This document shows positions 15,898 to 60,740 of a DNA stretch of 64,000 nucleotides, piece by piece. The position numbers and the translations under genes were made by a program. The DNA lies in the NCBI GenBank assembly GCA_963920705.1, contig OY987231.1, positions 17,027,024 to 17,091,023 of the forward strand. The letters are read 5' to 3'. The stretch comes from Odiellus spinosus (lineage: Eukaryota > Arthropoda > Arachnida > Opiliones > Phalangiidae). How positions within the stretch are numbered: the stretch's first letter is position 1; each line of letters starts with the position of its first letter. Below the pieces are notes generated by a model that was not told the DNA's origin, ran no database searches, and saw only the letters and a list, made by a program, of their open reading frames with translations.

Positions 15898-17282
15898 TCC
15901 TCCTTTGGGACGCCAAGCTATATCGTCTTTGTAATTCTACAAAGTGAAAACTTTCTCACGCTATATAGTTGTATAAGGCGTTTGTTTTATAACCTGACAA
16001 ATAATTAGGGAGAAAACAAATCGCTTCTTATTTTCGAAAATTCTAATGTACAAAATCAAAAGTTTTCGTATCTTTGACAGTATTAAAGTCGACTTAAATT
16101 TGGCTACGTACCAAGTTAGGGCTGTCAGGAACTAATAATAATCAAGAAATCACTACAAATCAGTCATTATGGCCACGTATCACGAAAAACATTGCATATT
16201 TTCCCACAAGTCTAGAGATTTAGTCAGAAATGATAAATTTTTTGGGTATGATAAAGAAATTCCGCATTTAAAATCACGTAAATTCTAACACAAAACAATT
16301 TGTGATAACAACAAATCACCGCTTATCATTCTCCAAAATTACAGGGATTTTATAACTCTAATTAACCCTTCGGACTAATTAGTTATTTTTAAACTAGTTT
16401 CTTATTTAATCGGTGTACAGTACGCCAAAAATTAACGAGGAAATGCTAGTTAAAAAGTAAAATATGGTTTATAAAGTCTATTAGGCGTTAATAATAACCA
16501 GACGTACGTTGTATGAACTCGACTTGAGATAAATTCTGAATTCGGTTGTCGAGAGCCTAGCAAATTTAACTTCAAAGAGATAGAGATCAAGAAAGGACAG
16601 TAACTCTATAGATGACCAACCATCTACAGAAGAAACTCGGTTTAGCAGTGTTGTAAAAGAGGAAAAGGTAGTTTTTTTCTTTTTTTTCTAATATAATCGA
16701 TAAGATTCTTCCCTGTCTTTGTTATATAGATCTAGAATATACGGACAAGAAACTTAGTTGCCATCCAAGTAAGCAATAAGTCTCTTGGCAAGCTGATGCG
16801 GATAGTTTTATAGCTTATATAAGACGGTCGAATACCAGTACCGGTACCTGATTGATGAGTGCCAATTTAGGTAACAAGGAAGGATTATAGTGTATTTTTG
16901 TAGAAAGTGAAACTTCCATTTCCTCTTGTCCATAACAATGTCCCTTGATTGGAGGTTTTTCCTTCGTGATAGTCGTTTCGATTCTCGTAAAGTTTGACCG
17001 GTGCGGAAAAAACCTGCCATTGACAGTCGAGTTAACATTTCTTCTTCTTTTTTTTTCTTCCGCCCGACTGACACTGGGATATTTGATGTACTCGTACTTT
17101 TCATTCTTAGAAACTACCAAAATTCCTGTTAGATAATAAATAGGAATGTTAATTTCTCTCACGTTCTTCATTTAAATTTTGGAAAACTTATTGGACAATT
17201 AAAAAATATAGATATTTTAGTGGTTAAATTCTAAAACTAAAAATTTAGTTTTGGCTTTGATCCTCACCCTTTTTAGCTAAAC

Positions 17283-17618
17283 CAGAAGCCGATGAAACCC
17301 TCCTTTGAAGTCTATTACTCCCGGGTCTTGTCTACCCCTCTCTGTAGGGGTTAGTTTCTAAATGCCGATTCGTACGCCTCCTAACGGTAGATATTTTCGG
17401 AGCGGGAGTTCGTCGAGCGAATATCTCTAGCAGCCTTGGAGTTCGTCAAAAAAACGTCGTCGTTTGTGGAGCGAGAGAATTTCAAATTTTCCGTAGACAG
17501 GGGGTATGAAGTAGGACCCCTCCGATCTCGTAAAATTGGGAATTTTACCCATACAGAGAGGAGCGCTATACGGAACATTAGAGTAGTAGACATCAAAGGA
17601 GGGTTTCATCGGCTTCTG
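17283..17618 (-). mobile_element. Foldback MITE, family M7, copy A
   Basis: It begins CAGAAGCCGATGAAACCC and ends with the exact inverse, GGGTTTCATCGGCTTCTG. It is flanked by the exact 7-bp direct repeat gctaaac (17276-17282 and 17619-17625). It is 336 bp and lies in the opposite orientation to copies B, C and D. The ~30-bp inverted ends are followed by a second inverted block (ctctctgta.gggt). There is no coding potential beyond chance frames. Confidence 0.96.
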
Positions 17619-18008
17619 GCTAAACATATAAGAATGATTTTTTTTTATATGTCGATCAGATGTAAATTTAAATTATGCAGACAGAGAAATTAAACCCAAA
17701 TCATTTCGCTACTTATTTTTAGGACCATATCTGAATTTCGATCTAGCTATAATTAAGAATTTTTTAAAGATTTAGATTTTTCGTTTTCCTTGGCGTTTCA
17801 TTTTTCTTTTGCGGCTAATTCCACGGGACTTGTAGTTTACTTTAAACCCACTAGTTCATAATTTTACTGTACTATTTTTGATTTAAAACTTTCTTGGATC
17901 CAATATCAAATTTTAGAGGATGGGTTTTGAATATCTTTTCTCATATTTCTTAGGTATTCATAAATGAGTTCTTTTGTGTAGGGATTTTTTTAATATGTAC
18001 GTGGACAG

Positions 18009-18214
18009 AGTAACGTTCACACTCGTAATTCTAAAAACGTTTTCAAATCTATTTGAATGTTCTAATCAACTTTTCACGCTGATAATTAAAATTTTAGATT
18101 GATGATTTATATATCGAATTAACCACGAATTAAATTTCACGCTTCATAAGTTCATAACCTTTCGAAAACGTTTATAAACTATTTTAAAAGTTTATTTTAG
18201 TGTGAAAGCGGCTT
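18009..18214. mobile_element. Possible foldback MITE with CGTTCACACT ends
   Basis: agtaacgttcacact at the left pairs with agtgtgaaagcggcttct at the right. Inner blocks aaaaacgttttcaaatc and cgaaaacgtttataaac also pair. A similar end, agccacgttcacactt, occurs alone near 7014. No target duplication is clear. Confidence 0.5.
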
Positions 18215-19406
18215 CTATTAAAAATAAGGAGTATTACGAGTTTTGTTACGATGAACCACGCGTTATTCTTGTCCATATACAACATCTCTTCAACAGCTTA
18301 GCTGTATTTCTTCTTTCCCCTAACTTTCATTTACTCTCTTCTCGATGTTGAATAAAATGTAGCTCGATAAATACGTATTAAAAGTCCTATGATCTATACC
18401 TTTCAAAAAGAATATATTTTAATATTTCAGAACGTACCAATTAAAGGGGTAATGAAGATATGCTATTTTAAATGAATATAGGAGCGTTAAATAAATCTCA
18501 ATATTAAAAATCGCGAAATGTTACCTATTTAATTTCGCAACAAAGTTGCTGGCAACCACGAAGGTTTATTAATGCCCCTAATCGTTTTAAATTAACATTT
18601 GACTCGCCTTATTTTTCTCTTTAAGCTAGTATTAATTCCGTATTTTCTGTCTCAAAAAGAAAAAGGGTTTAAGATCTGTAAACGTATTCTATCTGCTTTG
18701 CGTACGCCGTTTCTTTTCTCGTCTGAATTGAAACCGTTAGGATTTCGCAATCACCACCACCCACGAGGCTTTATTCGCCCTAACAATTTGGTTTAAATAT
18801 AGGAAATGGAAGCTAGAGTCTCTTAGGAGAAGGGGTGTGTGGGTGTAATAGGTGGGGGCTTTTTTGGGTAGGGGTTTAGGATTACTTCTTTTTCGGGCTC
18901 TCCGATTTGACCTCAAAAGCAAATTCCTCTTCTTCGTCGGTCTAAGAAAATGGTCTTTTGAATGAATTGCATTGGGTGGAATTTCGATTAGCAGTTATTT
19001 CGGAAGGGACCCGCCATGTAAAGCCCGTCTAAGCCAAGCCAGAGAAAATTGAAAATAAATCTCTTTAAAATGAGTATATGGGGCTACCCAAAATCGATTC
19101 AAACACGCCGTCGAGCCTTCATCCCTTTTTTTATTTTTTCTTTTCCCACCCAACTTCTATTTCTTTCGCGCAAAAAATATTGTAAAATAACGATTTCGGG
19201 TTTTCTACCGATTACTTATTCAATTTTTAAGAAGTATACCGGCACACTATATGGGTAAAAAAGAAAAAAGATTAGATCCGAGCTGATTTAACTTTTTTTC
19301 GCGCTTTCGACACTCCTTAAAATTATACCGTATATACTGTTTATGCGTATTTTCGGATGGTTGAATTTAATCTATATTTTAATACATATTTCTATAGAAT
19401 AAATAT

Positions 19407-19510
19407 CAGGGCTCATAAAAACCTTAAAAAAAACCTGGACTACCAGGAAAAATCAGGTTATTTGAAGGTTTCCAAAAAATCCTGGAACTTTTGACATAAA
19501 TCAGTGAAGG
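19407..19510 (+). mobile_element. Partial hAT-like repeat end (CAGGGCTCATA...)
   Basis: CAGGGCTCATAAAAACC followed by aacctggactaccaggaaaaatcagg resembles the CAGGGTTCGTA...CTGGAAAAGTCAGGG repeats that are common in animal genomes, and the element at 54537. Only the left part is present. Confidence 0.5.
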
Positions 19511-20760: not shown

Positions 20761-21823
20761 GAAAAAATCAACAATTAAAACTTTATCTATTACTTGTAAA
20801 TTAGGCTTAGTGTATTTTGAAATTTAAAACACGTGGGTATTTAATTTAAAGTTAATTTTTATTATTCTAATTAAGGATTTTTTGACCACGATGATTAGGA
20901 TATTTCAAAGGGATTATTAAATTATTAGAAAGATGGTGTAAATATCTCTTTAAGAACGATTTCCTCCCCTAAAAATCTTGTCAAAATTGCTGAGGTGGAA
21001 CGGAAGAAAATAATAAAATTGGGGTGGAGGAAACATTATGGATTTTTGTGAGGAGAGACAATGACCCTACCCCTGGCGCCCTAGATTTTCTGTTGGATAA
21101 TCTCGCCGCCTCTTTCGCCTCCAGCCAGCAGGCTGCATCGACTCCTCAGCCTCTTTAGTCTCCTCTCTCTCTCCTCTTCCTTCGTTTTTTTAGGGGGCAT
21201 CTTTAAGTTTACTTTTCCGCGATATTTACTGGAAATTTCATTTTTACAAAAGGGTTATTAGATGGAATAGGGCTCGCTCTATATAACATAGTTTAAAAAT
21301 TAAATTGAAAATGTGTATTTCGAAATGAGACGGAGAGTCGTGTGAGAAAATTGAACTGCACGCTCCGTGTACTATGTAAGATGGTTGACATCTTGACTAC
21401 CACTTCGCACGACATTATTAAATTTCTCTATATATGTTAAGAGATTCTTTGCTGTGAAGACAAATACGACAAAAATTTTCAGACATACCCTTTTGTATGG
21501 TATATTTATTGGAAAGGTTAAGTTCACATGTTCTCTGAAATTGGGGCTCGAGACCAATTGCTTAATTAGGGACACCTTCTTTGAAGTTAAATTTGGGGGG
21601 GGGGGTCATAATTAATTTTGTTGCATTGGCAAAAGTATAAACCAAATTTTAATTTAATACTGTCAATTAGTGTTTTTGTCACCAATTTCTCATGATTGTA
21701 TTGTAAAATACATTTTTTTCCACATCCTAGCTGTAAACATTAAAATTATAAATATTGAAGGGTTTATTTTTAAAGTCGTTAAAATGGTATAAAATTTTGA
21801 AAATTGCTTTTTAACAGTATTAA

Positions 21824-22134
21824 AGGGGAATGAAAGGCCGAAACAACCTATTTTTAATCGATTAAAAATGCTAAAATAATGAGAATAACAATAATATACG
21901 CGAGTACGCGTACTCGATCGTGATTGGCGACAAGAACAGCCACGAATATTTAAAATATACAGGTCGTGCTAGCCTAGTTCGCCGAGCTAGGCAGCCAAGG
22001 CTTAGCATCTGCAAGTTTCGAAATTGATTATAAAATAACGAAATATTTTTGGTGAGCTATATTATTGTTTTTCTCATTATTTTAGCATTCTTAATCGAGT
22101 AAAAATGGGTTGTTTTGGCCTTTCATTCTCCCTT
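21824..22134. mobile_element. TTAA-type foldback MITE, family K3 (AGGGRGAATGAAAGGCC)
   Basis: TTAA (21820-21823) precedes AGGGGAATGAAAGGCCG. The right end GGCCTTTCATTCTCCCT is followed by TCAA, a one-base decay of TTAA. The arms pair over about 70 bp (aaacaacc.attttta, tgctaaaataatgagaa). The unpaired centre is relatively GC-rich. Confidence 0.9.
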
Positions 22135-22952
22135 CAAGAAAAATGACCGTGCCTTACAAGTCGGCATAATTTTAAATGAACAAATTGGTGGTAAATGTAT
22201 ATGATAAACACATATATATGAGAAATGTATACGAGTTTCACACTGTATGGTGGACATATTTCAAACAAGTCCTTTGGTATTTTAAAAAGTTTGAAGAAGG
22301 CGTATCTTCACTTAATATAGCACTAGGTATCTAGACGAGTATTTGGAAGTTAATGAAAAAAACGCCCTAGTACATAACGTCCATTCTGTTGCTAGTGTTA
22401 ATATCGGATAGTTTTATCTCGGAGGATAGAAACTCGTATAAAAAAGTCCGATTATTCTCTAGCGACAGTATTCCTTCGTGGCGGCCCGGAAGAATTTTCG
22501 GGTATACGTTTTTCCGGAGAATAAAGAAATTGAAAGCGCCCTGCTTAAACTATTTGTATAGAATGTGAAGAATTTGAGAGCCCTGGTGAAACGCAATCTT
22601 GCTTAGTATAGCGATCAATCTCAAACATGTCGAACTAAATATTTTTCTTCTTTATACATGTACCAATATATATATTCTATTCTTCCCTTTAACACAAACA
22701 ATATACAAAGTTTTTCAAAACTTCCTCAAATAAAATTTTAAACTTATATCAAACAAGCCATGTATGGTGATTGTTTCAAAGAAATATTGTTATAGAAAGA
22801 CCCAAGAGTACCGAATTTATTTTTAGAAAATATTAGAATATTTCTCAGGACCCAAATTTTAAAAGCGCGTAGTTGAAGTGACACTGCCATGGTTTATGTC
22901 TATTTTAGATTATATTTTTAGTTTTTTCATACTATTTGGGTTGATTCCTTAA

Positions 22953-23720
22953 AAGGAGAATGCAACCAAGAATTCATTCAGGTTCCATAAGAATATGGGA
23001 GGGCCGCGATTCAATAACCATCCTCCCAAACTTTGTAGGAAAAGTTCGTCTGCTTCGAATCGATTTTTTAAGTAAATCGCTCCTGACATCTATTATTAAC
23101 CCGCGCCACTAACGACCTTGACATAATATTTTGGGTAATAAAAATGGAGCCGACCGAAAAAAGATCTAAGCGTACAAATGTTGCGAAAATTGCAGACGAT
23201 CTTTTGTTACAAAGTGTGGGAGGATGGTACCAGAGGCTAAAGCTATGCTCCCATATTCTTATGGAACCTGAATGGATTCTTGATGCAACCTAATAACAAG
23301 TGATTTTTTTTATCGATTCCTTATCATTTAAATAGGCCTAATCCACCAATAAAAACTTTACAAAACAAATATTAATATGCCTAATCCACTAGTGAACAAA
23401 TATTAAACTAGAAATAAAATTAAATTTATCCGAAAATTAGTGGGATTCAAGGAGATCCTGAATTGCCTCTATGTAAGGTCTAGGGACCAATGAGCAAAGG
23501 CCCGTCGTTCACGCGAGATCTCCACGAGACTTGCAATTGCATTCCATTGGGTGCTAGCCATTATTCTCCATGAATCCCGCGCTAAGCCTGTTTTCGGGGA
23601 AAGTTTTTAATTTATTTCTAGTTTAATATTTGTTCGTAATTTTTTTCACTATTGGATTATGCCTATTTAAACAATAAGGAAGCGATTAAAAATCACTTTT
23701 TGTTAGGTTGCATACTCCCT
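22953..23720. mobile_element. TTAA-type foldback MITE, family K1, carrying a nested element
   Basis: It is flanked by TTAA at 22949-22952 and 23721-23724. The left end AGGAGAATGCAAC is interrupted by the element at 22967-23282 and then resumes as ctaataacaagtg. The right end is gttaggttgcatactccct. The inner palindrome (gataaggaa / ttccttatc, gaataggc blocks) is conserved. Removing the insert leaves a normal ~445-bp family member. Confidence 0.9.
22967..23282 (+). mobile_element. Nested DNA element with CAAGAATYCATTCAGG ends and 7-bp target duplication
   Basis: The left end CAAGAATTCATTCAGGTTCC continues through ataagaatatgggag. The right end is its inverse with one mismatch, giving ~35-bp inverted ends. 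It is flanked by exact atgcaac repeats (22960-22966 and 23283-23289) that come from the host element's own AATGCAAC end. A 49-codon open frame starts at ATG 23144 (MEPTEKRSKRTNVAKIAD...), runs out of the element and stops at 23291. It could be a leftover of a transposase start. The superfamily is not known. Confidence 0.92.
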
Positions 23721-24879
23721 TTAATTTATATTCAATATAATTATTAAAGTAGAAATGCAATCTTTAGAAATTGAGGCTTTTTTACAGTTTATTTTTATTT
23801 TTAATAGTTTTTCGAGACATTCTGATAAATAGGTCACGATAATTTTCTAGAAATATTTCAGACTTACAGCCCTCTCTAGTTTTGATTACTAAATTAAAAA
23901 CTAGCCTAAATTTAAGCCTTTCGTTTATTATTCTTCACTACTAAACTGCTTCGTAATAATTTTAAATAAAATCTCATAGGAGATAATATTTTGCAAACTA
24001 CTTGCGAATGGAAATAGGGTATATTTAAATAAAATAGAAAAAACAGTCGAGAAAATTCAGCCTGACGCGACGCTGTAATTCGAGGCGCGTTTTTCTCCTA
24101 TTCGCCGTATATATCCCCTCTTTTAGTAATGGTATGCAAATGACAGGCTCGGTTCTCGCTTCTGTATCAAGATTGAATTTGGCTCTCTCCCATCGACATT
24201 ACAAGTTTAAGATAACTTTGTGTATTCGCTCTGCTAAACAGGCAAACTAGGCTAAAATTGGGGCGTATACGTGGGCTGCCTAGAGTCTAGAAAAATTTAC
24301 ATTTTGATTAAAGTTAAAAAAAGATCGTTACATTCTGCTAGTTTTTTTTCGGAGGAGAAATATCATAGTTTCCTTATAATTGAAATTTCCCCTACACGTT
24401 CTGTGATATATCGATAAAAAAATCGTTGGAATTATAGTCCAATTGTTAGATTTCGATGTTTTTTAACAAATACTAATATTCACAGTTGGCTTAATGATAT
24501 TACAAAATTTTACAACTTTGGGAGTTAACTTGCTATAGAAAAACCTTCAAAATAAATATTGTTATAAAATAAATTGAGTTTCGGAAATCGAGAAATCACG
24601 AAAACTAGAGCTTATTTCAACAATAGCTAAGCCAATTTATCGTTGTTAAAAATAAAATTACATTTCGGGCTCTAGGCTAGATATTTCACAAGCTATGACG
24701 TAGATAGCAACGTTTTCTAGCTAAATCTCTCCCATTTTATATATACGCGCGAGAATCAACTACTGTGCTTCTTTAATAGCCACGCAAGCAACCATTGTGT
24801 TGACGTACATAAGATACCGAATGTTTTTACTGTTACGGTAATATTTTCAAAATCATTAGCCATTAATATTATACGGTTA

Positions 24880-24960: not shown

Positions 24961-24964
24961 TTAA

Positions 24965-28011: not shown

Positions 28012-28133
28012 AGGTAGAATTAAACCTAACAACATGTGATTTTTCTTAAACTAGAAATAAATTTAAAGCTTACCCGAAAAATAGGCTTAGCAGGATTCTT
28101 GGAGATTCTGAATGTCTTCCCATTGATGGGTCA
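28012..28133 (+). mobile_element. TTAA-type MITE family K1, left half only
   Basis: TTAA (28008-28011) is followed by AGGTAGAATTAAACCTAACAAC, then ttaaactagaaataaattta and ataggcttagcaggattct. Similarity stops after ttgatgggtca, at the family's centre. The right arm is missing. Confidence 0.8.
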
Positions 28134-30518
28134 TAAATTATTGACTCTATAAAATACTCTTGGTATCATTTTTAATACTATACTTAATTCTAGTGTATCT
28201 GAATATTTGACTCAAATATATTGTTTATTAACACCATTAATTGTTTACTAGTATCATCACTAACCAATATATTTTTTTTCCACTTTCTTTGGTACAGTGA
28301 TTTGATGTAGGATCTTTGCAACGGAATCTGTAATTACGATTAACCACGGAAGCTCGCTTCATCTCCAAACAAGAGTTATCCTTGTAAGTTTTTACGCATT
28401 TATAGTTTCTCCTATTTTCCGTTTATTTAATCCCATGAAAAAAATGCTTCTTGGGGAATGGCAAGGTATTAGCATAATCTCTGTCACACGTATCCGAAAT
28501 TTATATCGGCATCAACTCCATAATTTACGCGTTCTTCGAGTAAACATTCTCTTTCAAAATTTGCGAGAAAAAAATTAAATCTTAATGTAAATGACTCTTA
28601 ACGTTCGAGTAGTTTCTTGTTTACAGTTCGTTTATTTTCCATTCATTAATTATTCACGTGTAGTTTATTTAAGCGAGTATACGAAGATCACATTAAGAAT
28701 TTGTAATGAATGGTAGCTAATGAAGGACACAGATTAATATTAAATGCATCAAGGTACTTAATGAATTCTGATATAGGTATACAGCTACAAATATATGCAA
28801 TTTTCAAACTATATACTTAAGCGTAGTGAAGAAAAGCTTAAGCGGATTGGTACACAATATTAAACCTCTTAGAAAAGAAAGTAAGATTGTGCCAATCCCG
28901 TTGAACAAGATTTCTAAAGCTGGTTTTATTAATAAATTAAGTTAAATCTTAATGAATATGATTAGTTTTCTCGAACCAAACTTTACATTAGGAATATATT
29001 GAAGTTTCCAACAAGACGGTGTTAAGGTATTCCAAAACCTTTCTCCTGTTTACTTAGCGAATGTTTTTAAATCAAAAATGAAAGTTAAATCCTAAACTAT
29101 TGGATTGAAACTCTAGACCTGGAGGTGAGGGGATTAACCTCAGGAAGGGATTGAAACGCCAGACTGCGCTAAATACCTTTTAAAGCGAAAAACTACAAAG
29201 AATTATGTATAAGAGAGCGTACCAGAAGCAAATGCTATATTTCAACGCGCATTGGTACTTATATTCTTGTTGTTAAGTAATTTTAAATTGAATATTACTT
29301 TTATTTTTTCATCAGTTTGATCCTTTTTAAAAACTTATACATCTGTATTTTCAGTCACCAAGTTAATTATATTTAATTCACCAAATAAGGCCCTGGGCAC
29401 AATTCATAGTAAATTATATTGAAATCGTATAAGATGTTAAACTCAAATTCATGGATACAATTAATTTGACACCGTATTTAATTTCGATGAAAGGGAGCAG
29501 TATTTTTGGTGGTGGCTGGCACCTATAGGTTAAAAATTACATGACATGTCCTTCGAGGTTGAGTAAAAATTGGTCCTAATTTTTGAAAAAATAATAAGTT
29601 TGAAAAATTCTAAGCCCATCCACCATGCCCTTTTGTAGGATATAATTTCGACTGGGTTTTGGAAGTGGTTATGGAGAAGTTTTACATATAAATTTCACTA
29701 GGACCACTATACTATCTAGAATACTATACTCTAGAATACAAACATTATAATATTTTGAATAAATAAATACCAATTTGTGTCCAAAATAAATTCTAGTAGC
29801 TACATCCGCCACCGTCTATTGTAAGTTCTGTATTCGTAGTGGCGTAGAGTTTGGGTCACTTCTTGGGTTGAATAAGTTGATGACCCGATTAAAAGGGCCT
29901 TCCTGAAGCGGGATAGACATTACCGGTATATAAATGGTTTTGATTTTGGCCACACTGCAATTTTTGCTGAACGGAGAAAAACTGAGAGGAAATAAAAACA
30001 AACGCATAACTGATATGGTTTTTAGGGGTAAAAAGCGGTTCGCCTACTCCATTTCCTTTCAAACTTTCGCGTCGCGATAACCCTATCGATTGGGCGAGAA
30101 AACCTAAAGACAAAATATATATATATATAAAAATGAGAAGGAAAAGCAAAAAAATAAAAGGCCCCACGGAAATGGTTTATGGAATGCGCTAAACTTTTTC
30201 CCAAGTTTTTACTCGCGGAAGGAAATAAGAATGCTCTTTTGATGTTGTATCTTTTAGAGTTGCCGACGCTTTTTATAAGGCTCGTAAGGTTTATAAGCAA
30301 TAAACATTCGCAGTATGGGGCTAATGATAAGATAACGTATATACAATATTATGGGTATTTACTCCAAGCTATGATAAATCCTGCTGATATTCGAATTTTT
30401 TACTTAAATTAGGTAAATTGAAACAAATAACATAAAAATACATTAATTTCATACTCAAAAGAAAGGGTATCAAGGCAAAATATTTTAAAAATTATAATTA
30501 AAAAATATTTTTCCTTAA
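28134..30518. other. No recognisable gene
   Basis: The DNA is AT-rich and without exons I can support. Overlapping open frames around 29816-30300 on the minus strand are compositional (T-rich hydrophobic runs, a TA dinucleotide tract at 30116-30130) and resemble no known protein. Confidence 0.5.
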
Positions 30519-30945
30519 AAGAGGAATGCAACCTAACAACAAGTGATTTTTTTTATCTATTCCTTATCGTTTAAATACCTCCTAGTCCGACAGTAAAAAA
30601 ATTAAACATATATTAAACTAGAAATAAATTTAATACTTACCCGGAAAATAGGCTTAGCTGGATTCATGGAGATCACCTTAACTACCCATATAAGGACTCG
30701 CGACAATGGCACTGATCGCTGGCTCTTATATGGGGAATCCACATGATCAATTTTATTGGTCGCTAGTCCTTATACGGCCGGGGAGTTCAGGATTTCTCCA
30801 TGAATCTAGCTAAGCCTATTTTGAGGTTAAGTTTTAAATTTATTTCTAGTTTAATATTTGTTTGTAAACTTTTTTACTGTTGAATTAGGCATATTGAAAC
30901 GATAAGGGCTCGATAAAAAATAACTTGTTAGGCTGCATTCTCTAT
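30519..30945. mobile_element. TTAA-type foldback MITE, family K1, complete
   Basis: TTAA is present at 30515-30518 and 30946-30949. The ends are AAGAGGAATGCAACC and GGCTGCATTCTCTAT. The arms pair through ttaaactagaaataaattta and ataggcttagctggattcatgg. The interior includes a second inverted segment (aaggactcgcgacaatgg / ttggtcgctagtccttata). Confidence 0.93.
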
Positions 30946-31715
30946 TTAAAAGCCTATTTATTTTACAGTAGATTTTAATTTATCAACATGATAGTTTTAA
31001 ACTTTGAACGAATGGTTTGTTTTCTCATTACAACAAACCCTTTTTGTTCGTGGAAATGGCGAGAATAACTATATTACGTCATAATAATTATAATTAAACT
31101 AAAAATTATTTATGCTTTACGGTGAAGCCCCTAAATAGGATATATATTTTTAATGCGATTTCATACCAACGCCTGTAGAAATGTTTCACTTTCAGTGCAC
31201 CATTGTCTAATGTGAAAACTAAAACAGGGGTTATATCTATTTAAAGTTAGTAATGAATATATAAGCGTGTTTTTCGGAACTAAAAATGATATATTTCCTT
31301 GAGATTATTTTATTTAATTATATACTCTATATTTCTCATTATCTTGGCTGCAAAATAGTTCAATGTTTGCTTACTAGGATATATTTAAACTCGTATAATG
31401 AAATTTTCTAACCCTTTAGTTTGTAATGGATATCGTCATCAATTTATTATTTATTTAATGGCGAGTCTTTAAATTTTCCATCATTTTCGCTTATCCAAAC
31501 AAAATGTTTTGTAAAGATACCCAAATACAGTCACGTTTTCGGGAAGGATGCCTATTTTGGTACATTTATTTTCACTTTGAATTGGCAACAAGTACAAACC
31601 GAGGCTTCTTTTTGTTTACTAAGACATAAAAGGAGCCTATCACATAGTATGAATTGCAAATTGAAGCTAGATCCAACGTATACAACTTAAGACTTACGAA
31701 TTAATGATTTCGATC

Positions 31716-32814: not shown

Positions 32815-33250
32815 AGTTCAGTTCAGTTCAGTTCGGTTTCCACTCCCTATGTTAGGTCCCTTTTGGATCAGGGAGGCTCACTAGATAGACTAGGGGCACA
32901 GTGGATAAAATAAAGCACTACCACGTAGCGCGTTTTGTGGGTTTTCTCAATGCCCACCATTTGTCTAGGAGACGCTTCGTACCGTCGAGGATCTGCCTCG
33001 ACGTTTGGTCGGTGGCTAGTCCGAGCCAGCGCAGATAGTCGGGAGTCGCTGTGTCCAACTCCTGGAGCGATATGTTCATAAGCGTCATCTAACGGGAAAC
33101 AGTGGCAAAAGTAAAAACTAACAAAACCTTTTGCGTTGCTGCTATGGTCTAGATAAAGAACATGCAGACACGCAAGTGGTTTTATTAGTTACTACTTTTG
33201 CCACTGTTTGCCGTAAGAGGGCGCTTATCCACGCCATGCTGTGTAATTCA
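32815..33250 (-). mobile_element. LINE 3' end, 5'-truncated, with (TGAAC)n tail
   Basis: Read on the minus strand, an open frame from about 33075 gives NISLQELDTATPDYLRW..., then DGTKRLLDKWWALRK..., and stops near 32938. A short untranslated part follows and ends in the tandem pentamer TGAAC (gttcagttcagttcggttt on the plus strand). A coding tail, 3' UTR and short-repeat terminus is the usual layout of a truncated non-LTR retrotransposon. I cannot assign the clade. The frame continues a few codons beyond the MITE at 33081-33225, so that MITE landed inside it. Confidence 0.7.
33081..33225. mobile_element. Mariner-type MITE inserted in the LINE fragment
   Basis: The ends AGCGTCATCTAACGGGAAAC and, inverted, AGCGCCCTCTTACGGCAAAC continue as agtggcaaaagta..aactaa.aaaacc, giving ~45-bp inverted ends in 145 bp. 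TA flanks each end (33079-33080 and 33226-33227). Removing it joins ...atatgttcaTA to tccacgcc, which restores a continuous minus-strand frame across the junction. Confidence 0.85.
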
Positions 33251-34390
33251 TCTGTATCTCTTAAGGTAGGTGTCCATTGTTTATAGTCCTAGGCCAGAAT
33301 TTAAGTTTGCTTATTGCGTTACGCTACTGCGCGTTAATTACTTTTCTTGAATAATTATACGGTAATTTGAAAATTTTTGAAAAACTGAAAAGGTATTCAT
33401 TACATCGAGTGTACTATAAATATAACGTTGATTTATGGAAACTATTCCGTATCCACGCTCACTAATGTATAAATGAAAGTTGAAAAATAAGGCAATTTCA
33501 TATTCAAATCACCATTTCTCTTCGAAACTTCGTTAGTATATAAAGGTCAAATTTGGAATTTTTCTATATTTTCGTGACTTTTCGTAGTTTTATAGCGCGT
33601 CATTTATCTAAAAAAACAACTTTTCTCCATTAGTTAACGAGAAAAGGATCCTTAATGACTGTTTTGTGTCGACCCATCGTATAAGCCCAAAAGTCGTAAC
33701 GGTAACACACGCGCGATACTGGTGCGTGACCCTGAAAGGTCGCTAGTTGAATTTGGCTCGTTTCTAGTCGATCTAATTAGCCAACGCTCTAGCGCACACC
33801 CCAATCCCATTTACTTGTAGAAAGATTTATTGAGACTGACCTAGAATACGGATTAATCCATTTGATAGAAACTGAATTGTGTGTATCGTATAGGCCTACT
33901 TTCTCGCGCCAAAATCAATGAAAAAATATAAAAGCTTAGTTTTCTTGTTAAAGAGGCAATGGAATTTGCCGACATTTTTAAATAGATTTCTTTAACTAAA
34001 AATATGCTTAATTTATCACGGAACAAGTATTTAAAGTGTTCAAAATTCACTTTGAAAATAGGCCATACTTGTATTCATGGGGGAGTTGATGAATGTATTT
34101 ACAAATATATATTTTAATCATCCCTTTCATAGGGAATTTATGTATTCTGTACGACATAGAAGCGCAACATTTTTTATGAGTCAGATGTCAAGAAACGTTA
34201 AAACCCTTCGTCAATTTAAACTGTATAACATCATACCCTGTATTTGATTGAGTGAAACGGGCAGTAAGAGCTTCTAAAAAACGCTGTCCATCATTTGATA
34301 AAAAAATCGATAAAATATTTTTATTTTAAATTGAATAAAATAACCATAAAAATCAACTTCCTACTAGACTACAAGCGTCTTTCGGATTAA

Positions 34391-34779
34391 AGAGAGAATG
34401 CAGCCTAAAAACAAGTGCTTTTTTAGCGATTTCTTAGAGTTTAAATAGGCCTAATCCACAGTAAAAAAACTTATTAACAAATACTAAACTAGAAATAAAT
34501 TTAAAACTTACACGGAAAATAGGCTTAGCTGGATTCATGGAGATATCCTGAGCTTCCCATATATAAGGACTATCGACCAATGACATTGCTCGATGAATCT
34601 TATATGGGAATGCAGGATCTCCATGATCAATTCAGGATATCTCCATGAATCCAACTAAGCCTATTTTGCTGGTAGGTTTTAAATTTATTTATATTTTAAT
34701 ATTTGTTTGTAAACTTTAGGACTATTTAAACAATAAGGAATCGATGAAAAATCACTTGTTGTTTGGCTGCATTCTCCCT
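34391..34779. mobile_element. TTAA-type foldback MITE, family K1, complete
   Basis: TTAA is present at 34387-34390 and 34780-34783. The ends AGAGAGAATGCAGCC and GGCTGCATTCTCCCT are exact inverses apart from one purine. The inner arms are ataggcttagctggattcat and atgaatccaactaagccta. Confidence 0.95.
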
Positions 34780-34783
34780 TTAA

Positions 34784-37700
34784 TGGGTTATAGACTACAA
34801 GATGAATGCATTTCGTTCCAAAGTGGACAGTGGTACGTCAAGATTCCGATTACAATTTTCTTATTAATGCAATAGATTATTTAAATTCATAATTATATAC
34901 ATTTCGGAATTACGAATCCCCTAGCCCTTTATTTAGTTTATTCATCCACTTTAACTTACCCTAAACTGTAAATCGCCTCCTTGAAGTTGAAGACTTATAG
35001 TAATTCAATAATACGAACAATTCTTTGATTCCGGAAAAATAAAATTAATTTTCTCTTTTACTTTCGTTCTGAAAGGATTACTTAAGAATAGACGGTTTTT
35101 GTGGGATTTCTAATAGACTTTGGGAAGACTGCGATTTATCTTAGGCGTAGAATATATTTGATTCAATAGAAAATGATATTGATGCTGTTATTAAGATATT
35201 TGATGGTAGATGATTTGAAAAGGTTTTGATTAAAGGGAGATAAACCTTTTTTTTTACAGCATTTTTAAAAATGACCAAAACTAGTTAATCTCAATCTACA
35301 TTATATATATAAGAATCTTAATCTACAATATAAGACTCGGTGACGATTCATAAGTTTATGAAATTTGATTTGAATAGAGCTCTAGATTTCCCTATAGACT
35401 TAAAGTCAAATTATATTTTCGTAGGGATTATGATTACTATGCAAAGCTACCGGAAACCCAAATTTTATTTAAAATGACACGCACTAGATGAATTTTAATT
35501 CAAAGATAATTAACCTTTTCTAATTAAAGATTTTCTTCAGATTCTTAAAAAAAAAATCGTAATCAAAAAACTTTAATATCAAATTAAAGAGCTTGTTTTT
35601 AAATGAAATAGTTATAAAGGGATAAGGTTTAAATTCGATTTGAACTGTTAAAATATGCTAATTATTATCAAAGATGCAAAATTATGCTTGAAGAAATTCT
35701 AAATTGAAATGTATACCCTTTTGAATCGTGATCACGGTATTGGTAACTTGGTTCGAACCAAAAGAAATACCGTTCGTTTTTCTGTTAAATTGGTTTATGT
35801 TCATCAGTATTTTCAATTTGTTGAGAATTTTTAGTCTGAAATTTCTCCGAAACGGATTTAGGCTTAGCGAACACAGTTCTAGATTTTAATAATTAACTGC
35901 ATATTAGGCCGAAACCATTGTTGAGTTTGGATAAGGTTTTTACTTAAAATATTAACAGCCCAAATATTTTAAAAATAACTGGTTTTCAGAGTCTATAGTC
36001 CAACTTGTCCTTTTGTACTCTCTATTTTAGTCATCTTGAATATAATTAATAGATAATTTGAAAGTAAAGCGTTTCCTTTATAGCTTTTGACGCTTTGTAC
36101 TCTCAGTTTAAAGTTATATGAAATTACAGAAATAGACCGGTCTTCTAGAGTTTTGATAGCTCCATTACACGATGGTTTGAAAAGCGCCTTACAACAGATG
36201 GTGTCTTCGAAAACATTTAAGAACTGCATCATGGCGAGGAACACTTTGTATCCCTGTCATAATATATATAATACTAGCAAATTAAATTACAGGCGACCAC
36301 AGAGGCAAAGACAACACAGACAAATAAAATTAAAATACATGTACAATTAATTATTAAAAATAATTGCTAATTAGTGAAATAAACAATCAATTTAAGAATT
36401 AAGTAAAAAAATTATGGAGAAATTTAGATTAAAATTTAAACGATTAGATTAGGAATTTAGACGAAGGAAAGGAATTGTAGAAGTCTCAACATCGTCTCTA
36501 CATTTCTGGCTCTACAGTACAAAGATTATAAACGATAAAAAAGCTATACACCATAAAAATGAAGATATATATACATGGGCGGACAACGCCCAGATAAAAT
36601 TTACCTAGATTTGTGTCTCTCTTTTCCAATTATCGAAAACTAACTTCGAATAGACCTTCATGTAACGGAACTCTTTGTACGCGAGCTGGTTTCAAAATAT
36701 AGCGTAGCTAAGCGGCTCTTCAAATAAACTTTGGAGATAATTTTCATCAAGAACGCCCGAATGACGAGCTTAATTTTATATATCCATCGATTTAACAAAT
36801 AGGCCAGACAGTTTAGACGAAGCATTAATTTTAAATCCCGGTCGGCATATGGTGTCGGTTTTATCACCGGGATTTTATAGGACACTCATATGCTCAAGTT
36901 AAGAGCGCCTGGGAAATCAAAATTACCATCCATTTTAGCCTATTTCCTTAAGGTATATACTGTAAAATGGTTTCTGCCTCCTTTAGATGCAAATCTTATA
37001 AATATTTCGAGAAGGGCCGCTTAAACCTCTAGTCACTATCAAAAAGGGTCATCATAGCGGAAACCAAATCCTATTAAGTTTATTTTTATTAGTCTTCATG
37101 TGCATTCACACACGTGGATACATTTGCAAGAATTCTTATAACTTTCCTGAACATAACTCTTTGATTAGAAATAAATTAAAAAATCAGACGTTTTTTTTTT
37201 TTTCAATTTTGAGACGGCGGTTTAATGAGAGTACGAGACTACCAAGCGTGTGAAGAAATAGCTACCACCCCTGTCAAGATTCAGTAATTTGGAATCTTCT
37301 CGAGATGGACGGAATTCTGATAGTAGCGCTTCTATTTTCTTCCTTATAACTACTTCCGAATTTCTCCGATAGGGGGCTTCGATGGGCAACGGCAGACGCT
37401 TGGGTGTCTTAAATAAATCAGTTTACCTAAGTCAGACTTTTAGGTTTGACCATGATGAATAACTTAAAATATATATATATATTAATTAACTGCTACTTCA
37501 TGGTTGAGAAAATCTGTTTATTAAATAACCTTTTTAGAGCTTTTGCACTTATATAGTCTCTTATCAAAATATTAAGAAACCAACAAACAAAAAATTCGTC
37601 CTAGAGAAGCTCGGAACTATATTCAAAAGTTATTCTACGTCAGAGAATTATTCTTTTCGTTTTCGCTTTCTTTTTCTCACCCCATATGGACAGTATTTTA

Positions 37701-42660: not shown

Positions 42661-42664
42661 TTAA

Positions 42665-48067: not shown

Positions 48068-48074
48068 GTTTTAA

Positions 48075-48411
48075 CAGAAGCCGATGAAACCCTCCTTTGA
48101 AGTCTACTACTCTAATGTTCGATATAGCGCTCCTCTCTGTATGGGTAAAATTCCCAATTTTCCGAGATCGGAGGGGTCCTACTTAATACCCCCTTGTCTA
48201 CGGAAAATTGGAAATTCTCTCTCTCCACAAACGACGTCGTTTTTTGACGAACTCCAAGGCTGCTAGAGATATTCGCTCGACGAACTCCCGCTCCGAAAAC
48301 ATCTACCGTTAGGAGGCGTACGAATCGCGCCTTTTGAGAATAACCCATACAGAGAGGGGTAGACAAGACCCCGGAGCAATAGACTTCAAAGGAGGGTTTC
48401 ATCGGCTTCTG
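48075..48411 (+). mobile_element. Foldback MITE, family M7, copy B
   Basis: The ends are CAGAAGCCGATGAAACCC and GGGTTTCATCGGCTTCTG. It is flanked by an exact gttttaa repeat (48068-48074 and 48412-48418). It is 337 bp and differs from copies C and D at only a small number of positions. The open frames across it on both strands are by-products of its palindromic ends. Confidence 0.96.
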
Positions 48412-48609
48412 GTTTTAAATGAGAGGCAGTACATATGCTTCTGGCTCTATAATAGCCACGGGTCTATAGTGATGACGTGAATGTTTTTAATTTTAATTTC
48501 CAAGCATTGTAGATGCCCACCATTTTATTTTTATTTTATTTGTTTATTTTATTTATTTTTTTTTTCACTGTTGGGTTAATTTTTTAAGGCATATTTATAT
48601 TTTTTAATC

Positions 48610-48656: not shown

Positions 48657-50616
48657 TATAAGCACATTAGCTTGAAATATATTATACGTTTGAGATCTAA
48701 ATTTCGGAGAAGGCCCAATAAAAACGGAATCGCCTCGTATATAACTTAATACATAAAAGGGCAAGTGATATTTTTTGGTGCTCACGTAAAGAATATTTTT
48801 CTTACTTAAAACGACAATAAAAAGCTGTTTTCGTAGTTTTTTTTTATTTTGATGGTCACTGGGACCAGTTTAGACGCAATAAGGATGGCTAAGAACATCA
48901 TAGTAGTCACACCCACATTCTATATTCACAAAGTCAATCCGAAATCCTAATACCCTCTTCAGACGAGGCCAAAAAATCTTGATTCAAAACGCGACTTTAC
49001 TCTGGGTAGCTATTTCCCTTCCACAAGAAGTTGATGACCCAATCCAAGATCCAACTATCAAATTTCTATAGCCACACATGTTTCAGGTGTCGAAATGATC
49101 CAAATAAATCGCAGTTTCGTTCTACGATTTCACCCTATTCTTGAAATCAACTTTTATTACTACATTATCCACAACAATATAAGAGCCACAACTTCTTGAT
49201 AAGAAGGTGTGGCTAAAAATAACTCTTTACTATCACTTTCTTGCCATGGGAGACTTTATTGGCCTTCCTATCGTAGTGATAATTCTTTGAAAACTCTTCT
49301 TTCAACTCGAGACTTCGCAATTTCTTTGGACAAGCGAAGAACGCTTTTTCTAAATTTATAATAAGAACTGTCGGATGGGGTCCGCCGTAATTACATCGCT
49401 GTCAATGCCTCAGTATCATATGCAAATTAGTGGCAAGTTAAAATTATTTTTAAAATTAAGTCTTGTTGTATTTTTTTAATTGGGGAAAGGTTATTGTTCG
49501 CTATAGATTAACAAGCTAATGACACTAGTTTCATTAGTTACACGATAAAAGCGCCCTTTACTTTCAAAATATTCTTAAAATGAGTGTTTTTGGTTCGAAA
49601 AGTTAGACATGGATTCCAGCTAGACCTAGTTAAGAAATAGAATGTACCGAACCATTTATTGAACAAATTTTCCCGCTTTTTATAGTGTTCGTAATATTAC
49701 AATTGCATAGATTAGTGTCTACCTTCTCTCATTATCTCCTTCTGATAATAATACGTACCGTAATTAAGAAATATATTAAATTTGATCTTTTGGGATTCAT
49801 CACTATGGAAAAGAGAGAAGCTTATCTTCGAGTGATTCATCATCTGTTAGGTTCTACTCCGATGCTTGCATAATGTCGCGTACGAAACCATTATTCCTTA
49901 GCCTTTTTTTAGCTAAAAACGAAGCAACACTATTTTCTCAGGGGAATATCCATTGTACAGGCACTCGTGTACTACGAGACTAAATCATATAAATTACGAA
50001 TAAATTCTTTTCACTCAGAAAACCAAAAAAAAAAAAAAAAAATGAAAAGAGCTGTCATATAATCTTTTCTCTAGACATTCCTGGTTTGATTTATAGTTAT
50101 ATATTTCGAGACATAAAAGAATTCTGGCAGCCTTTTAAAGGGTTATTCGAGTTTTTTGGTTGGCTCTTCGAGTATATATTTATAGTAACAATTTTGAAAA
50201 ACGTTTTCACTTAATCTGATATTTGACCCATTGAGCTAGGACGCGTGCGTTATTAAAGATCGTTTAATAAGATTAATAACTTGCCGTCATCAATCCGAAT
50301 AAGCGTCAGAAAAGCTATATAATGTTTATTACTTTATTTTATAGCAAAGATGGTATGATGGTTGATTTCATGACAGCCACATAATTTCGACTACACTAAC
50401 TTAGACCTCGGCCATTCCAGCTATACTTCCTCCGAGACACATTCATTAGCGGAAGGAACCTTTTGCCTTAATTAATCTATAATATATAAAGTCATGCGCT
50501 TTGATGTGTAAATAAACTGCCAGGTAAGAGTACATTTTTTTCTCGCTTATTAACAGAGATTTTATTCTCTTATGTACATATTTATGAAGTAATATCTCTA
50601 TTTTTATTCATTATAG

Positions 50617-50954
50617 CAGAAGTAGATGAAACCCTCCTTTGAAGTCTACTACTCTAATGTTCGATATAGCGCTCCTCTCTGTATGGGTAAAATTCCCAAT
50701 TTTACGAGATCGGAGGGGTCCTACTTCATACCCCCTGTCTACGGAAAATTGGAAATTCTCTCTCTCCATAAACGACGACGTTTTTTTTAACGAACTACAA
50801 GGCTGCTAGAGATATTCTCTCGACGAACTCCCGCTCCGAAAATATCTACCGTTAGGAGGCGTACGAATCGCGCTTTTTGAAACTAACCCATACAGAGAGG
50901 AGTAGACCAGACCAGGGAGTAATAGACTTCAAAGGAGGGTTTCATCGGCTTCTG
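50617..50954 (+). mobile_element. Foldback MITE, family M7, copy C
   Basis: It starts CAGAAGTAGATGAAACCC, two changes from copies A and B that copy D shares, and ends ATCGGCTTCTG. An exact attatag repeat flanks it (50610-50616 and 50955-50961). It is 338 bp. Confidence 0.96.
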
Positions 50955-50961
50955 ATTATAG

Positions 50962-55510: not shown

Positions 55511-55874
55511 AGGGAGAATGCAACCTTAACGTTTAAAAAAATGCAAACACATAAACTAGGCATAGAAATAAATTTAAAATTTACCAGGAAAATAGGCTTA
55601 ACTGGATTCATGTAGATCCTGAATTTCTTATCGTTGATGGGTCAGCCACCAATGAGAAAGGCCCGTCGATAAGGCCAGATCTCCTTGAGACTTCCAGTAA
55701 CATTCGATTGGTCGCGAAAAATTTTAGGATCTCCATGAATCCAGCTAAGCCTTTTATGTAAGTTTTAACTTTATTTATAGTTTAATATTTGTTTATTTTT
55801 TACTGGTGGACTGGGCCTATTTAAACGATAAGGAATCGATAAAAAGTAACTTGTTGTCATGTTGCGTTCTACTT
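55511..55874. mobile_element. TTAA-type foldback MITE, family K1, complete
   Basis: TTAA is present at 55507-55510 and 55875-55878. The ends are AGGGAGAATGCAACC and GTTGCGTTCTACT. The inner arms are ataggcttaactggattcat and atgaatccagctaagcc. It lies in the presumed long intron of the signal-peptide gene. Confidence 0.93.
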
Positions 55875-56675
55875 TTAATTTTAGCCACATTTAAGGAAAT
55901 TCCAATCCATGTAACAGGCGATTAATATATTCTCTTAGCCCCAAACGACTCCGGGTCAAAATTTTAAACATTGTAAGGAAATATAGTTTCTACTTCTTGT
56001 TTTGAAGAAATATTGAAAAGTATTAAGCGGTTTCTGTTTTCATAAATCAACCGCAGCTGCTGCGTCTGTAACACAGCAGATATTAAATACTCGCGTCTCA
56101 TTTTTGAATCGTTGCGATCCAAAATCGATACATTTCTTCCAATTTTCCCCAAAAACCAGTATACAGGTGCCACATTTACAAATCCTTCTGTAAAGGGTGT
56201 GATTCTTTCGAAAAATCTATTCGCCAATTACGAGATTAAGTAAGCGACTACAACCTTTGGCAATGCTAATTGGTCCATTACCTAATAGTCGAAGCTTCAG
56301 GCTTGTACACCGACTAAGTGTATTGATCAACCCCTTGTAAAATTCTACACATTATTTATTTTTCTGGAAATACTTTTTCTAAACCTTTATCCCTTGAGAA
56401 GATTATGTTTCAATAACTGGCTCTCTTTGTGTTAAAATATGACCTCATAATCATTCATTAGAAGCCTATATTTTAATAACTTACCAAAGACTAGTTCATT
56501 ATGAGCCCATGTTTCAGTTACTGGTATTATCACTTTCACTGCCAACCCATTTATTTTAGTTTTTTTTTGTCATTTAACACTTTCTCTGCCAACCATTATT
56601 TTAGTTATTGGCCCTAACACTTTCACTATGAGCCCATATAAATATCTCTGACCTTTTCAGACTAGGCCGAGCTTA

Positions 56676-56738: not shown

Positions 56739-56743
56739 AAACT

Positions 56744-56794
56744 GGCTAATTACGCCTCGTCTTAAGATGCTCTTTAGACGAGGCGTAATTAGCC
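56744..56794. repeat. Perfect 19-bp inverted repeat (hairpin 2)
   Basis: GGCTAATTACGCCTCGTCT (56744-56762) and AGACGAGGCGTAATTAGCC (56776-56794) are exact inverses around a 13-base loop. It begins five bases after hairpin 1 ends. Confidence 0.92.
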
Positions 56795-57636: not shown

Positions 57637-57655
57637 CGGGTTGCATTCTCCCTTA
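57637..57655. mobile_element. Solo right end of a K1-like TTAA element
   Basis: CGGGTTGCATTCTCCCTTA carries the K1 terminal word, but no partner left end is found within 500 bp upstream. It may be a deletion remnant. Confidence 0.5.
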
Positions 57656-57793
57656 CAAACTCTTTGGTTTAAAACACATTTTAGGGATTGGTTTTAAATA
57701 AAATGTAAAATAAGGAAATGTGATTAGTTAATGTATTTTTAGTGGGAACCTTTGGGAGCCCTGGTGTAAAGTTTAACAGGGTTATTCTTTCTT

Positions 57794-57795
<2 letters not shown>

Positions 57796-57839
<44 letters not shown>

Positions 57840-57900
57840 CTGAAGCGCGTTCGGACCACGTCGTTAGGGGAGCTAACGAATACCGCTGTACGTATTTAGG
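57796..57900 (-). mobile_element. Possible retroposed sequence with 40-nt poly(A) tail
   Basis: A run of 40 T (57796-57835) on the plus strand is followed by GC-richer, unlike DNA (aactgaagcgcgttcggacc...). Read on the minus strand this is a body ending in ggtccgaacgcgcttcag and then A40. ggtccgaacgc resembles a pol III B box. The left border and any target duplication are not visible. Confidence 0.35.
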
Positions 57901-58253
57901 AATTGACATAGTTATATAATGAAAATGTCAAATTAATATAGGTGTATAGATTCGTGTATGTTCTATTTCCGCTTTTATGCCATTTTCCCTGTAATAATTC
58001 AAAATGGAATAGGCATATTTTATAGAAATTCAGCGCGTAATTTTTCAATTATATCATTTTCAAATATTTTGAAGAGATAATGAAGACGATTATTTTATAT
58101 TTCTGTTAGATTAATAGCGTAAAATATGCGAAAAAAATTAAAACCACACCAAAGGTTTCTCATTAATTTATAATTAGTCATAAAAATTAATATTATCCAA
58201 AAACCTCGTTTGTTAACGAGAAGTGGCATGCTATTTCTCTCCTCATTACTTCT

Positions 58254-58541
58254 ATCAAGGGCCAAATATAGTTTTTAATACAACTAACAATGGACAAATA
58301 TTATTTTTAACACAACTAACAATGGACAAATATTATTTTTAACACAACTAACAATGGACAAATATTATTTTTAACACAACTAACAATGGACAAATATTAT
58401 TTTTAACACAACTAACAATGGACAAATATTATTTTTAACACAACTAACAATGGACAAATATTATTTTTAACACAACTAACAATGGACAAATATTATTTTT
58501 AACACAACTAACAATGGACAAATAATATATTTAAAATAACT
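58254..58541. repeat. Minisatellite, 32-bp unit, 8 copies
   Basis: The unit AACAATGGACAAATATTATT plus tttaacacaact is repeated eight times from 58286, nearly perfectly, with a degenerate unit on the left edge and decay of the last copy. Confidence 0.97.
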
Positions 58542-58640
58542 TAACCGAAACCTTTCGATATAATTAATATTCCGCTCCATGGATTATTTGTTAGTTCTTG
58601 TTTTAACAAGAAAGGATAAAGGTTACACTGATAATTCTTA

Positions 58641-58828
58641 AAGGAAGTGGCGGCTTCCTTACCAGCGCACTTCTCCTCTACACACTACCTTATCAAAGGC
58701 AAGAGAGCGAGGCGTGGCTGATAAGCGTATATCAGTTGGTCCTATGGTTCCTGCCTTTGACAAGTCGGATTTGATGTGCAGCTGTAAGAAGCTTTCGCTG
58801 TGGCGTCTCAAAGACCCGCCACTTGCTT
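58641..58828. mobile_element. Possible MITE with AAGGAAGTGGCGG ends
   Basis: AAGGAAGTGGCGG at the left and CCGCCACTTGCTT at the right are inverses with one mismatch, with TA on each side (58639-58640 and 58829-58830). An inner pair, cttatcaaaggcaa and tgcctttgacaag, also faces inward. The 188 bp are GC-richer than the surroundings. The open frames here are chance. Confidence 0.6.
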
Positions 58829-59017
58829 TAAAAAGAGCGGGGTGGTTTACCAACGTGAATTATTTCATTTTTATTCATTGTACCAAATTTAACCTTCGCG
58901 TACGATGTACAAATTTATTTTGCAATCATTGGAAAAAATATCGTCGAAAACACACTTCAGGGACTTCGGATTTTGTGTCGTTTTCACAGATTTTTTCCAA
59001 AAATTCTTATATAAAAT

Positions 59018-59344
59018 CAGAAGTAGATGAAACCCTCCTTTGAAGTCTACTACTCTAATGTTCGATATAGCGCTCCTCTCTGTATGGGTAAAATTTCCAA
59101 TTTTACGAGATCGGAGGGGTCCTACTTCATACCCCCCTGTCTACGGAAAATTGGAAATTCTCTCTCTCCACAAACGACGACGTTTTTTTGACGAACTCCA
59201 AGGCTGCTAGAGATATTCGCTCGACGAACTCCCGCTCCGAAAATATCTACGTACGAATCGCGCTTATTGAAAATAACCCATACAGAGAGGGGTAAACAAG
59301 ACCAGGGAGTAATAGACTTCAAAGGAGGGTTTCATCGGCTTCTG
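59018..59344 (+). mobile_element. Foldback MITE, family M7, copy D
   Basis: It starts CAGAAGTAGATGAAACCC and ends ATCGGCTTCTG. An exact ataaaat repeat flanks it (59011-59017 and 59345-59351). At 327 bp it lacks about 11 bases in the middle right (around the ctaccgttaggaggcgtacg motif of its sisters). Confidence 0.96.
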
Positions 59345-60740
59345 ATAAAATCAAAGTACCTCAATTGAAGGAAAAATCTCACATTTATAGATCAAGCCGG
59401 ATCAAGCAGTTATTTACTGAGTTAAAAACATTTCTCGTGCAAAAATGTATTAGGAATTAAGTGTGGGATATGCTTGGCTGCGTAATATCCCAATCTAAAT
59501 TCATTACAGTTTAAAAATATCCAATAGGAAAAATATAACTTGCGTTTAAAGATAAGCTACGATGGAACATCTCTCTAATTTATTTTCAGGATAAAATAAT
59601 ATTTCCACAATTTGGTGCTCAATTTAAATTAAGTTGGGTTAGGTTTCGATTTGTTTGAGCCGCGATTTTAAATGAATCTTTAATATTACATGTTCCTATG
59701 TTAAACAATTTGGCTTTTAGGAAACCCTGAACAAAATTTTTCTATTTCGTTAGATTTAGACCTGGGTTGGGTTTTTTTACGTAAACATCGTTTTATTTCC
59801 TTTATATTATACAATTTAACAAATGATTATTTTACCTCGGAGATTTCCTTTGAGAAATACTTGTAAAAGCATATGCCTGAAGTGTTTCTTTGAATAAGGA
59901 ATAGGGTCTACCATTATAAGAGACCGCGCAGGATAATCTTCCCACACCATAAGTTCTAGAACGAATCTAGTCGAGAAGAGAAACATTCTACTTAATTCCA
60001 TTAACGTATCAAGCAATGTAGTATTATTTCCGGATTTGTCCTTTTTTCTTCTTCTTACCAAGATATACATAAAAGTGGCCAGTACATGTGCACTCTATTT
60101 AATATTTTTTTTTTTTTTTTCAAAGAGAAAATGGCAACCGATAGAAAATGGGCGGATTTATACACGATTTCCAACTTTTTATAGGTACCAAAAGTAGTAT
60201 TGCGAACATCTTCTGGAAGAAGAATATTGCGAGAGTTAGGATACACTCAGGGAGTCCTTGTTCTGTTATTTAATTTCTTAGATATAAAGGAGGGATTCGG
60301 ATTTTACGTGATGTACACTCAAACTGATCCTATCTATAGATTATTTTTCTCAGTATGAATTGGGATAAAAATAACGAACAAATAATCCTTTTCGTAAAAC
60401 AAGTGGCTTAAAAGGAATCTTGCAATTACTATTACTAATATTTACTATGTAGAAAATTGAAGGATGGAAAGGTCAAAGGGCAAGTTATGTTTTCAAATGT
60501 ATTTGGTGGTAAGGGTTCCAATCTCTTCAATACCTAGTTTTAGTTCAAACGCTTATGAATTGTGAATTCAGCTTTGATAGTCCTTAAAGAGTTCAAACTT
60601 GTACATCCGTGTTCTCGTGTGATTTGTTTCTTGATCTTGGTATACCATTATTTTATGAGAGTTTTGAGAACTGTCGGAGCAGAATGAAATAAAAACGCCG
60701 TAAGATTTTAGAATTAAACTCAAGGCATGTCTATAGCCCT

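Follow-up and report, generated by a model that had tools for sequence, protein, structure and literature searches.

Which transposase moves a family of miniature inverted-repeat transposable elements (MITEs) when every insertion is flanked by a 7-bp target duplication? The question is raised by the M7 family, of which four copies lie in a stretch of 64,000 nucleotides from Odiellus spinosus contig OY987231.1 (the window, meaning the whole of that stretch). An earlier note on this DNA had proposed M7 as a MITE family, and we found its four copies at the coordinates given there, each between exact 7-bp repeats, as the note had said. M7 has the properties by which a MITE is recognised (it is short, has no transposase gene, carries inverted ends, and is present in several copies of one body), and that classification is supported. 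We consider M7 a real and ordinary MITE family, probably mobilised by a P-superfamily transposase. The copies, identified by blastn and alignment (copy 2 was also folded as DNA), and their target duplications are as follows.

17276..17282: GCTAAAC, the 7-bp target duplication on the left of copy 1, repeated exactly at 17619-17625
17283..17618, minus strand: M7 copy 1, 336 bp, facing the opposite way from copies 2-4
17619..17625: GCTAAAC, the 7-bp target duplication on the right of copy 1
48068..48074: GTTTTAA, the 7-bp target duplication on the left of copy 2
48075..48411, plus strand: M7 copy 2, 337 bp
48412..48418: GTTTTAA, the 7-bp target duplication on the right of copy 2
50610..50616: ATTATAG, the 7-bp target duplication on the left of copy 3
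50617..50954, plus strand: M7 copy 3, 338 bp, left end CAGAAGTAG
50955..50961: ATTATAG, the 7-bp target duplication on the right of copy 3
59011..59017: ATAAAAT, the 7-bp target duplication on the left of copy 4
59018..59344, plus strand: M7 copy 4, 327 bp, with an 11-bp internal deletion, left end CAGAAGTAG
59345..59351: ATAAAAT, the 7-bp target duplication on the right of copy 4

The chance of an exact 7-bp repeat at a spacing of 337 bp is about 1.5e-4, as estimated from 400,000 random placements in the window. When the element edges were set at CAG...CTG, the edge test gave a repeat of exactly 7 bp for all four M7 copies. Moving the right edge one base inward gave 8 bp for copy 2 only, and moving the left edge two bases inward gave 9 bp for copy 4 only. 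A single fixed pair of edges fits every copy exactly only at 7 bp. The choice between 7 and 8 bp is settled by copy 1, and not by copies 2, 3, and 4 each taken alone.

The window was also scanned for exact repeats beside inverted ends that match at 12 of 14 positions and lie 60-4000 bp apart, with single-letter duplications dropped. Five first-order Markov sequences, counted without the single-letter filter, served as the control. At length 7 the scan found seven pairs compared with a Markov mean of 0.8, and five of the seven were the four M7 copies and a second element; the other two are read as chance. At length 8 there were two pairs, both within TTAA-type repeats. There were 13 pairs at length 6 compared with 1.8 in the Markov sequences, and these pairs, which were not checked singly, are read as internal repeats of the TTAA family together with AT-rich chance pairs. 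The second element lies as follows.

22960..22966: ATGCAAC, the 7-bp duplication on the left of the second element
22967..23282: second element, 316 bp, ends CAAGAATTCATTCAGG..., with 35-bp inverted ends that are 97% complementary; a single copy in the window
23283..23289: ATGCAAC, the 7-bp duplication on the right of the second element

The second element is nested in a TTAA-type MITE, and the uninterrupted sequence is found in relatives of that MITE (30511-30577, 1643-1710, and others). The target and the element both have C where they meet, so that this site, on its own, is compatible with a duplication of either 7 or 8 bp. No significant similarity was found between M7 and the second element, either in the bodies (best E value 0.15) or in the ends (p 0.97 and 0.31), and therefore the two were not treated as one family. 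A short, start-like frame in the second element (23147-23281) was dropped; it has no Pfam match and overlaps an internal inverted repeat.

The inverted ends of M7 agree at 36, 36, 35, and 35 of the first 38 positions in copies 1-4, and a weaker similarity between the ends extends beyond this to about 72 bp (blastn). The end sequence proposed earlier holds for the right end, which reads CAGAAGCCG inwards in all four copies, but the left end of copies 3 and 4 is CAGAAGTAGATGAAACCC and not CAGAAGCCG. Copy 2, the only copy folded, is predicted to form a strong hairpin as single-stranded DNA (-84.2 kcal/mol, where 100 shuffles average -37.0; z -12.8). The longest open frames in copies 1-4 have 76, 99, 63, and 69 codons, and the 99-codon frame of copy 2 is not kept at that length elsewhere. 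One M7 frame was scanned against Pfam and gave no match. At 327-338 bp the copies are too short for a transposase. The G+C content of the M7 consensus is 47%, compared with 33% for the window.

Pairwise identity among the copies is 91.7-94.4% with gaps (blastn) and 94.3-96.9% without gaps (alignment). The four copies carry 7, 8, 6, and 3 private substitutions, respectively, over about 337 bp, and six further columns are tied. At 92-94% with gaps and 94-97% without, to call the bodies nearly identical, as the earlier note did, is an overstatement. Since gap-free identity is 94-97% and each copy has 3-8 private substitutions, M7 is a moderately young family; the idea of recent insertion holds to that extent, but the copies are not freshly inserted. 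Copies 3 and 4 are the closest pair when gaps are left out and have the left-end variant CAGAAGTAG in common, which suggests two sub-lineages. A blastn search with the four copies found no fifth copy in the 64-kb window, where the remaining hits were at most 30 bp long with E values of at least 0.2, except for the internal repeats of M7 itself. The flanks of the M7 copies matched other parts of the window only over stretches of 17-51 bp, found for copies 1 and 2, and none of these matches represents an empty site.

The duplicated sequences show a target bias compatible with that of 1360, a Drosophila element of the P superfamily. The motif GTTNAAC is matched by the five duplications at 5, 4, 3, 3, and 4 of six positions, and has the top z among 64 palindromic 7-bp motifs. 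Relative to the window 7-mers outside the five elements, the p value of the fit is 3.5e-4 with the M7 sites alone and 4.5e-5 when the site of the second element is included. Similar values were obtained when the letters were shuffled within each duplication (5.3e-4 for four sites, 9.0e-5 for five) and when the flanking 300 bp were used as the control (2.7e-4 and 4.5e-5). The older 1360 motif, KTNBWAB, gave p 0.011 (four sites) and 0.005 (five).

The reading that we favour, at somewhat better than an even chance, is that a P-superfamily transposase of the 1360/Galileo type mobilises the MITE family M7. This enzyme, acting in trans and by cut-and-paste, would cleave the target DNA with a 7-bp stagger, and gap repair after insertion would then produce the 7-bp duplications. 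The transposase would belong to the 7-bp branch of the P superfamily, as do Drosophila 1360 and Galileo. What is seen directly is a set of short copies with inverted ends and exact duplications, a 1360-compatible target bias, and, in the one copy folded, the potential to form a hairpin.

In resequencing data of D. melanogaster, the modal duplication of 1360 is 7 bp, found in 274 of 279 insertions, and its motif is GTTNAAC; the P-group flanks of the target are ANAGT/ACTNT (PMC3276498). By description, M7 is like 1360/Hoppel in its 7-bp duplications and in the fit of its target sites to GTTNAAC. Galileo has mostly 7-bp duplications, with three 8-bp copies, and its consensus in D. willistoni is GTATTAC (PMC4168063; also PMC2775673). 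By description, M7 and Galileo are alike in their 7-bp duplications, the predominant length in Galileo, in their fold-back ends, and in their non-autonomous copies. Galileo differs from M7 in that a stronger target preference, for GTANTAC, is stated for it, and in its long inverted ends with internal repeats. The CA...TG ends of M7 and its inverted repeats of about 38 bp resemble those of P-superfamily elements, and the terminal inverted repeats (TIRs) of Anopheles P elements are 27-32 bp (PMC1562414). P-derived MITEs have been documented in Anopheles, with consensus lengths of 205-675 bp (PMC1562414), and those of Anopheles gambiae, short derivatives with P-type ends, resemble M7. The P superfamily is reported from every species of one arthropod survey (PMC6327564). 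The P superfamily as a near fit, suggested in the earlier note, is supported. Its description of a strict 7-bp duplication as unusual is fair, but such duplications are documented for 1360 and Galileo and annotated for some hAT families in Repbase. Literature searches on 7-bp duplications brought up Galileo, Dada, and a scatter of others.

Several points weigh against a P-type transposase. No transposase was found by Pfam among 29 of the 150 stop-to-stop frames of at least 60 aa in the window, nor in one 45-aa frame in the second element (E limits 0.1, 0.05, and 0.05). The M7 ends match the D. melanogaster P end at only 5-6 of 11 terminal positions. The Repbase rule is that ends can be aligned at positions 1-11 (PMC4455052). 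The string GATGAAA, common to M7 and the P end, is weak evidence of likeness (p 0.017 and 0.04), and the end of the second element has no likeness to that P end (p 0.94). Anopheles P elements and their MITEs, including those of A. gambiae, differ from M7 in having 8-bp duplications (PMC1562414). Taken singly, copies 3 and 4 and the second element would also fit an 8-bp duplication with the left edge shifted. The survey that lists the P superfamily for all its species lists hAT and Dada for all of them as well (PMC6327564), so that presence in the host would not discriminate among the three. The target-motif sample is five sites, and the raw score of ATTNAAT equals that of GTTNAAC. Also enriched are the hAT-like motif NTNNNAN (p 0.003 with four sites and 0.0004 with five) and the Galileo motif GTANTAC (p 0.003 and 0.001). 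Because these two motifs are enriched besides GTTNAAC, the target bias would suit integration by a P-like or a hAT-like transposase and by itself makes no choice between the two.

The P element proper of D. melanogaster is an unlikely mobiliser. Its duplication is 8 bp in the same resequencing data (PMC3276498), not 7 bp, and the ends agree at only the 5-6 of 11 positions given above.

Ends of hAT elements begin with CA, as in M7, and follow the rule YARNG. This rule fails at base 5 in both element types, M7 starting with CAGAA and the second element with CAAGA. Because the duplication length is 7 bp and the fifth end base is not G, we favour the P superfamily, at a little above even, over mobilisation of M7 by a hAT transposase with a 7-bp instead of an 8-bp stagger, which we regard as possible but doubtful. 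There are hAT families annotated with a 7-bp target-site duplication (TSD) that would share both the duplication length and the CA... ends with M7, and they are known here by mention alone. That mention is an example command of the Repbase authors, which extracts hAT families annotated as '7-bp TSD' (PMC4455052), and it keeps hAT in contention. Over the five duplications, T at position 2 or A at position 6 is found in 9 of 10 cases, and this fits a shortened NTNNNNAN hobo motif (PMC3276498). However, the hAT duplication is 8 bp in a standard description (PMC3942097), and hobo itself has 8 bp in 1,196 of 1,198 insertions (PMC3276498).

Two unrelated end types, both with 7-bp duplications, lie in one 64-kb window. 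It is unlikely, in our judgement, that they represent either a 7-bp-cutting transposase lineage outside the described superfamilies or a 7-bp branch of the P superfamily active well outside Drosophila. That M7 itself belongs to a 7-bp-duplication lineage fitting no described superfamily is less likely again. The two end types speak for it, as does a full-text search in which no paper contained any of six end strings of M7, with Repbase, Dfam, and supplements beyond the reach of that search; the family may be uncatalogued in the literature searched. However, known superfamilies already make 7-bp duplications, and the anatomy of M7 demands no new one. The undescribed lineage raised in the earlier note therefore goes further than these results.

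A Mutator-like element (MULE) derivative with a short duplication is highly improbable. One plant screen accepts perfect 7-bp duplications within a range of 7-11 bp, but the usual duplications are 8-11 bp with TIRs of 100-500 bp (PMC4858842), and M7 has 7 bp in all four copies and TIRs of about 38 bp. We give slightly less credence still to the possibility that the duplications are truly 8 bp, as in standard P or hAT elements, and that the left edge was misplaced. Copies 3 and 4 do acquire an 8-bp repeat, as does the second element, when the left edge is moved one base inward, but copies 1 and 2 are then left without an exact repeat (7 of 8 positions agree), the CA...TG symmetry of the ends is lost, and two copies would have to have changed at the same base. 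The least probable source is Dada, which makes 6-7 bp duplications (PMC3706591, PMC8869645) and, as noted, is listed for all the surveyed arthropods. Dada-U6 and Dada-U1 are described as lacking terminal inverted repeats, and clear-ended Dada as lying in small-RNA genes (PMC3706591), with occasional off-target copies in fish (PMC8869645). In M7 the ends are inverted repeats, the four targets all differ, and the window contained no tRNA (ARAGORN) and no Rfam family at the gathering threshold. Dada, the other near fit named earlier, is thus a poor one. Neither a 7-bp TSD in PMC1852546, which flanks an RTE fragment, nor Tetris, with duplications of 8-10 bp (PMC4079207), is a precedent for M7.

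If the mobiliser of M7 is P-type, it would extend by one member the 7-bp branch of the P superfamily, which the literature consulted describes in Drosophila, and would help to show whether the length of the stagger follows the phylogeny of the transposases. If a hAT or some other transposase is responsible, duplication length alone would be a poor guide to superfamily. Otherwise, M7 is routine repeat annotation.

Searches of sequence collections gave a few matches to the element ends. The M7 end patterns had no exact-pattern hit in viral contigs, and in the collection of genome contigs the longer M7 pattern had no hit and the 18-letter pattern had three. The exact-pattern scan also gave one viral-contig hit to the end of the second element. 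These three genome hits and one viral hit were read as chance, as blastn of the loci confined the match to the pattern plus at most two edge bases; besides the pattern match there was a single 16-bp blastn match, with an E value of 0.4, in one locus (L004). Copy 1 had no match when compared with phages, and the TTAA-family pattern had no hit in viral contigs.

The Pfam hits in the window were TPR-like repeats at 6580-6861 and 8999-9283, under Pfam's curated cut-offs, and the hit at 8999-9283 is backed by solved TPR chains. The two frames look like exon-like pieces of a split gene on the plus strand. Weak single hits to YmiD, DUF7044, and Opacity were taken as noise. The window has a CpG observed/expected ratio of 1.16 and only two stop-to-stop frames of at least 120 aa. 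Together with the 33% G+C and the TPR-like pieces, these values would, from the sequence alone, point to an animal and perhaps to an insect.

Other repeats are also present in the window. A degenerate fold-back MITE family occupies 1640-1972, 23283-23725, 30515-30949, 34386-34784, and 55563-55879, with shorter matches near 28046, 55504, and 61913. Its fuller copies have TTAA at their ends, its long alignments are 66-78% alike, and its internal palindromes are strong. An inverted-repeat element at 21820-22137, which starts with TTAAAGGGGAATG and has arms that are 91% complementary, is apparently of the TTAA type. At 33078-33228 there is a 151-bp near-palindrome, with arms 83% complementary and TA near both ends, which by eye is like a mariner MITE. 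Minisatellites are found at 260-680 (unit of 31 bp), 58252-58541 (32 bp), and 63794-64000 (about 32 bp).

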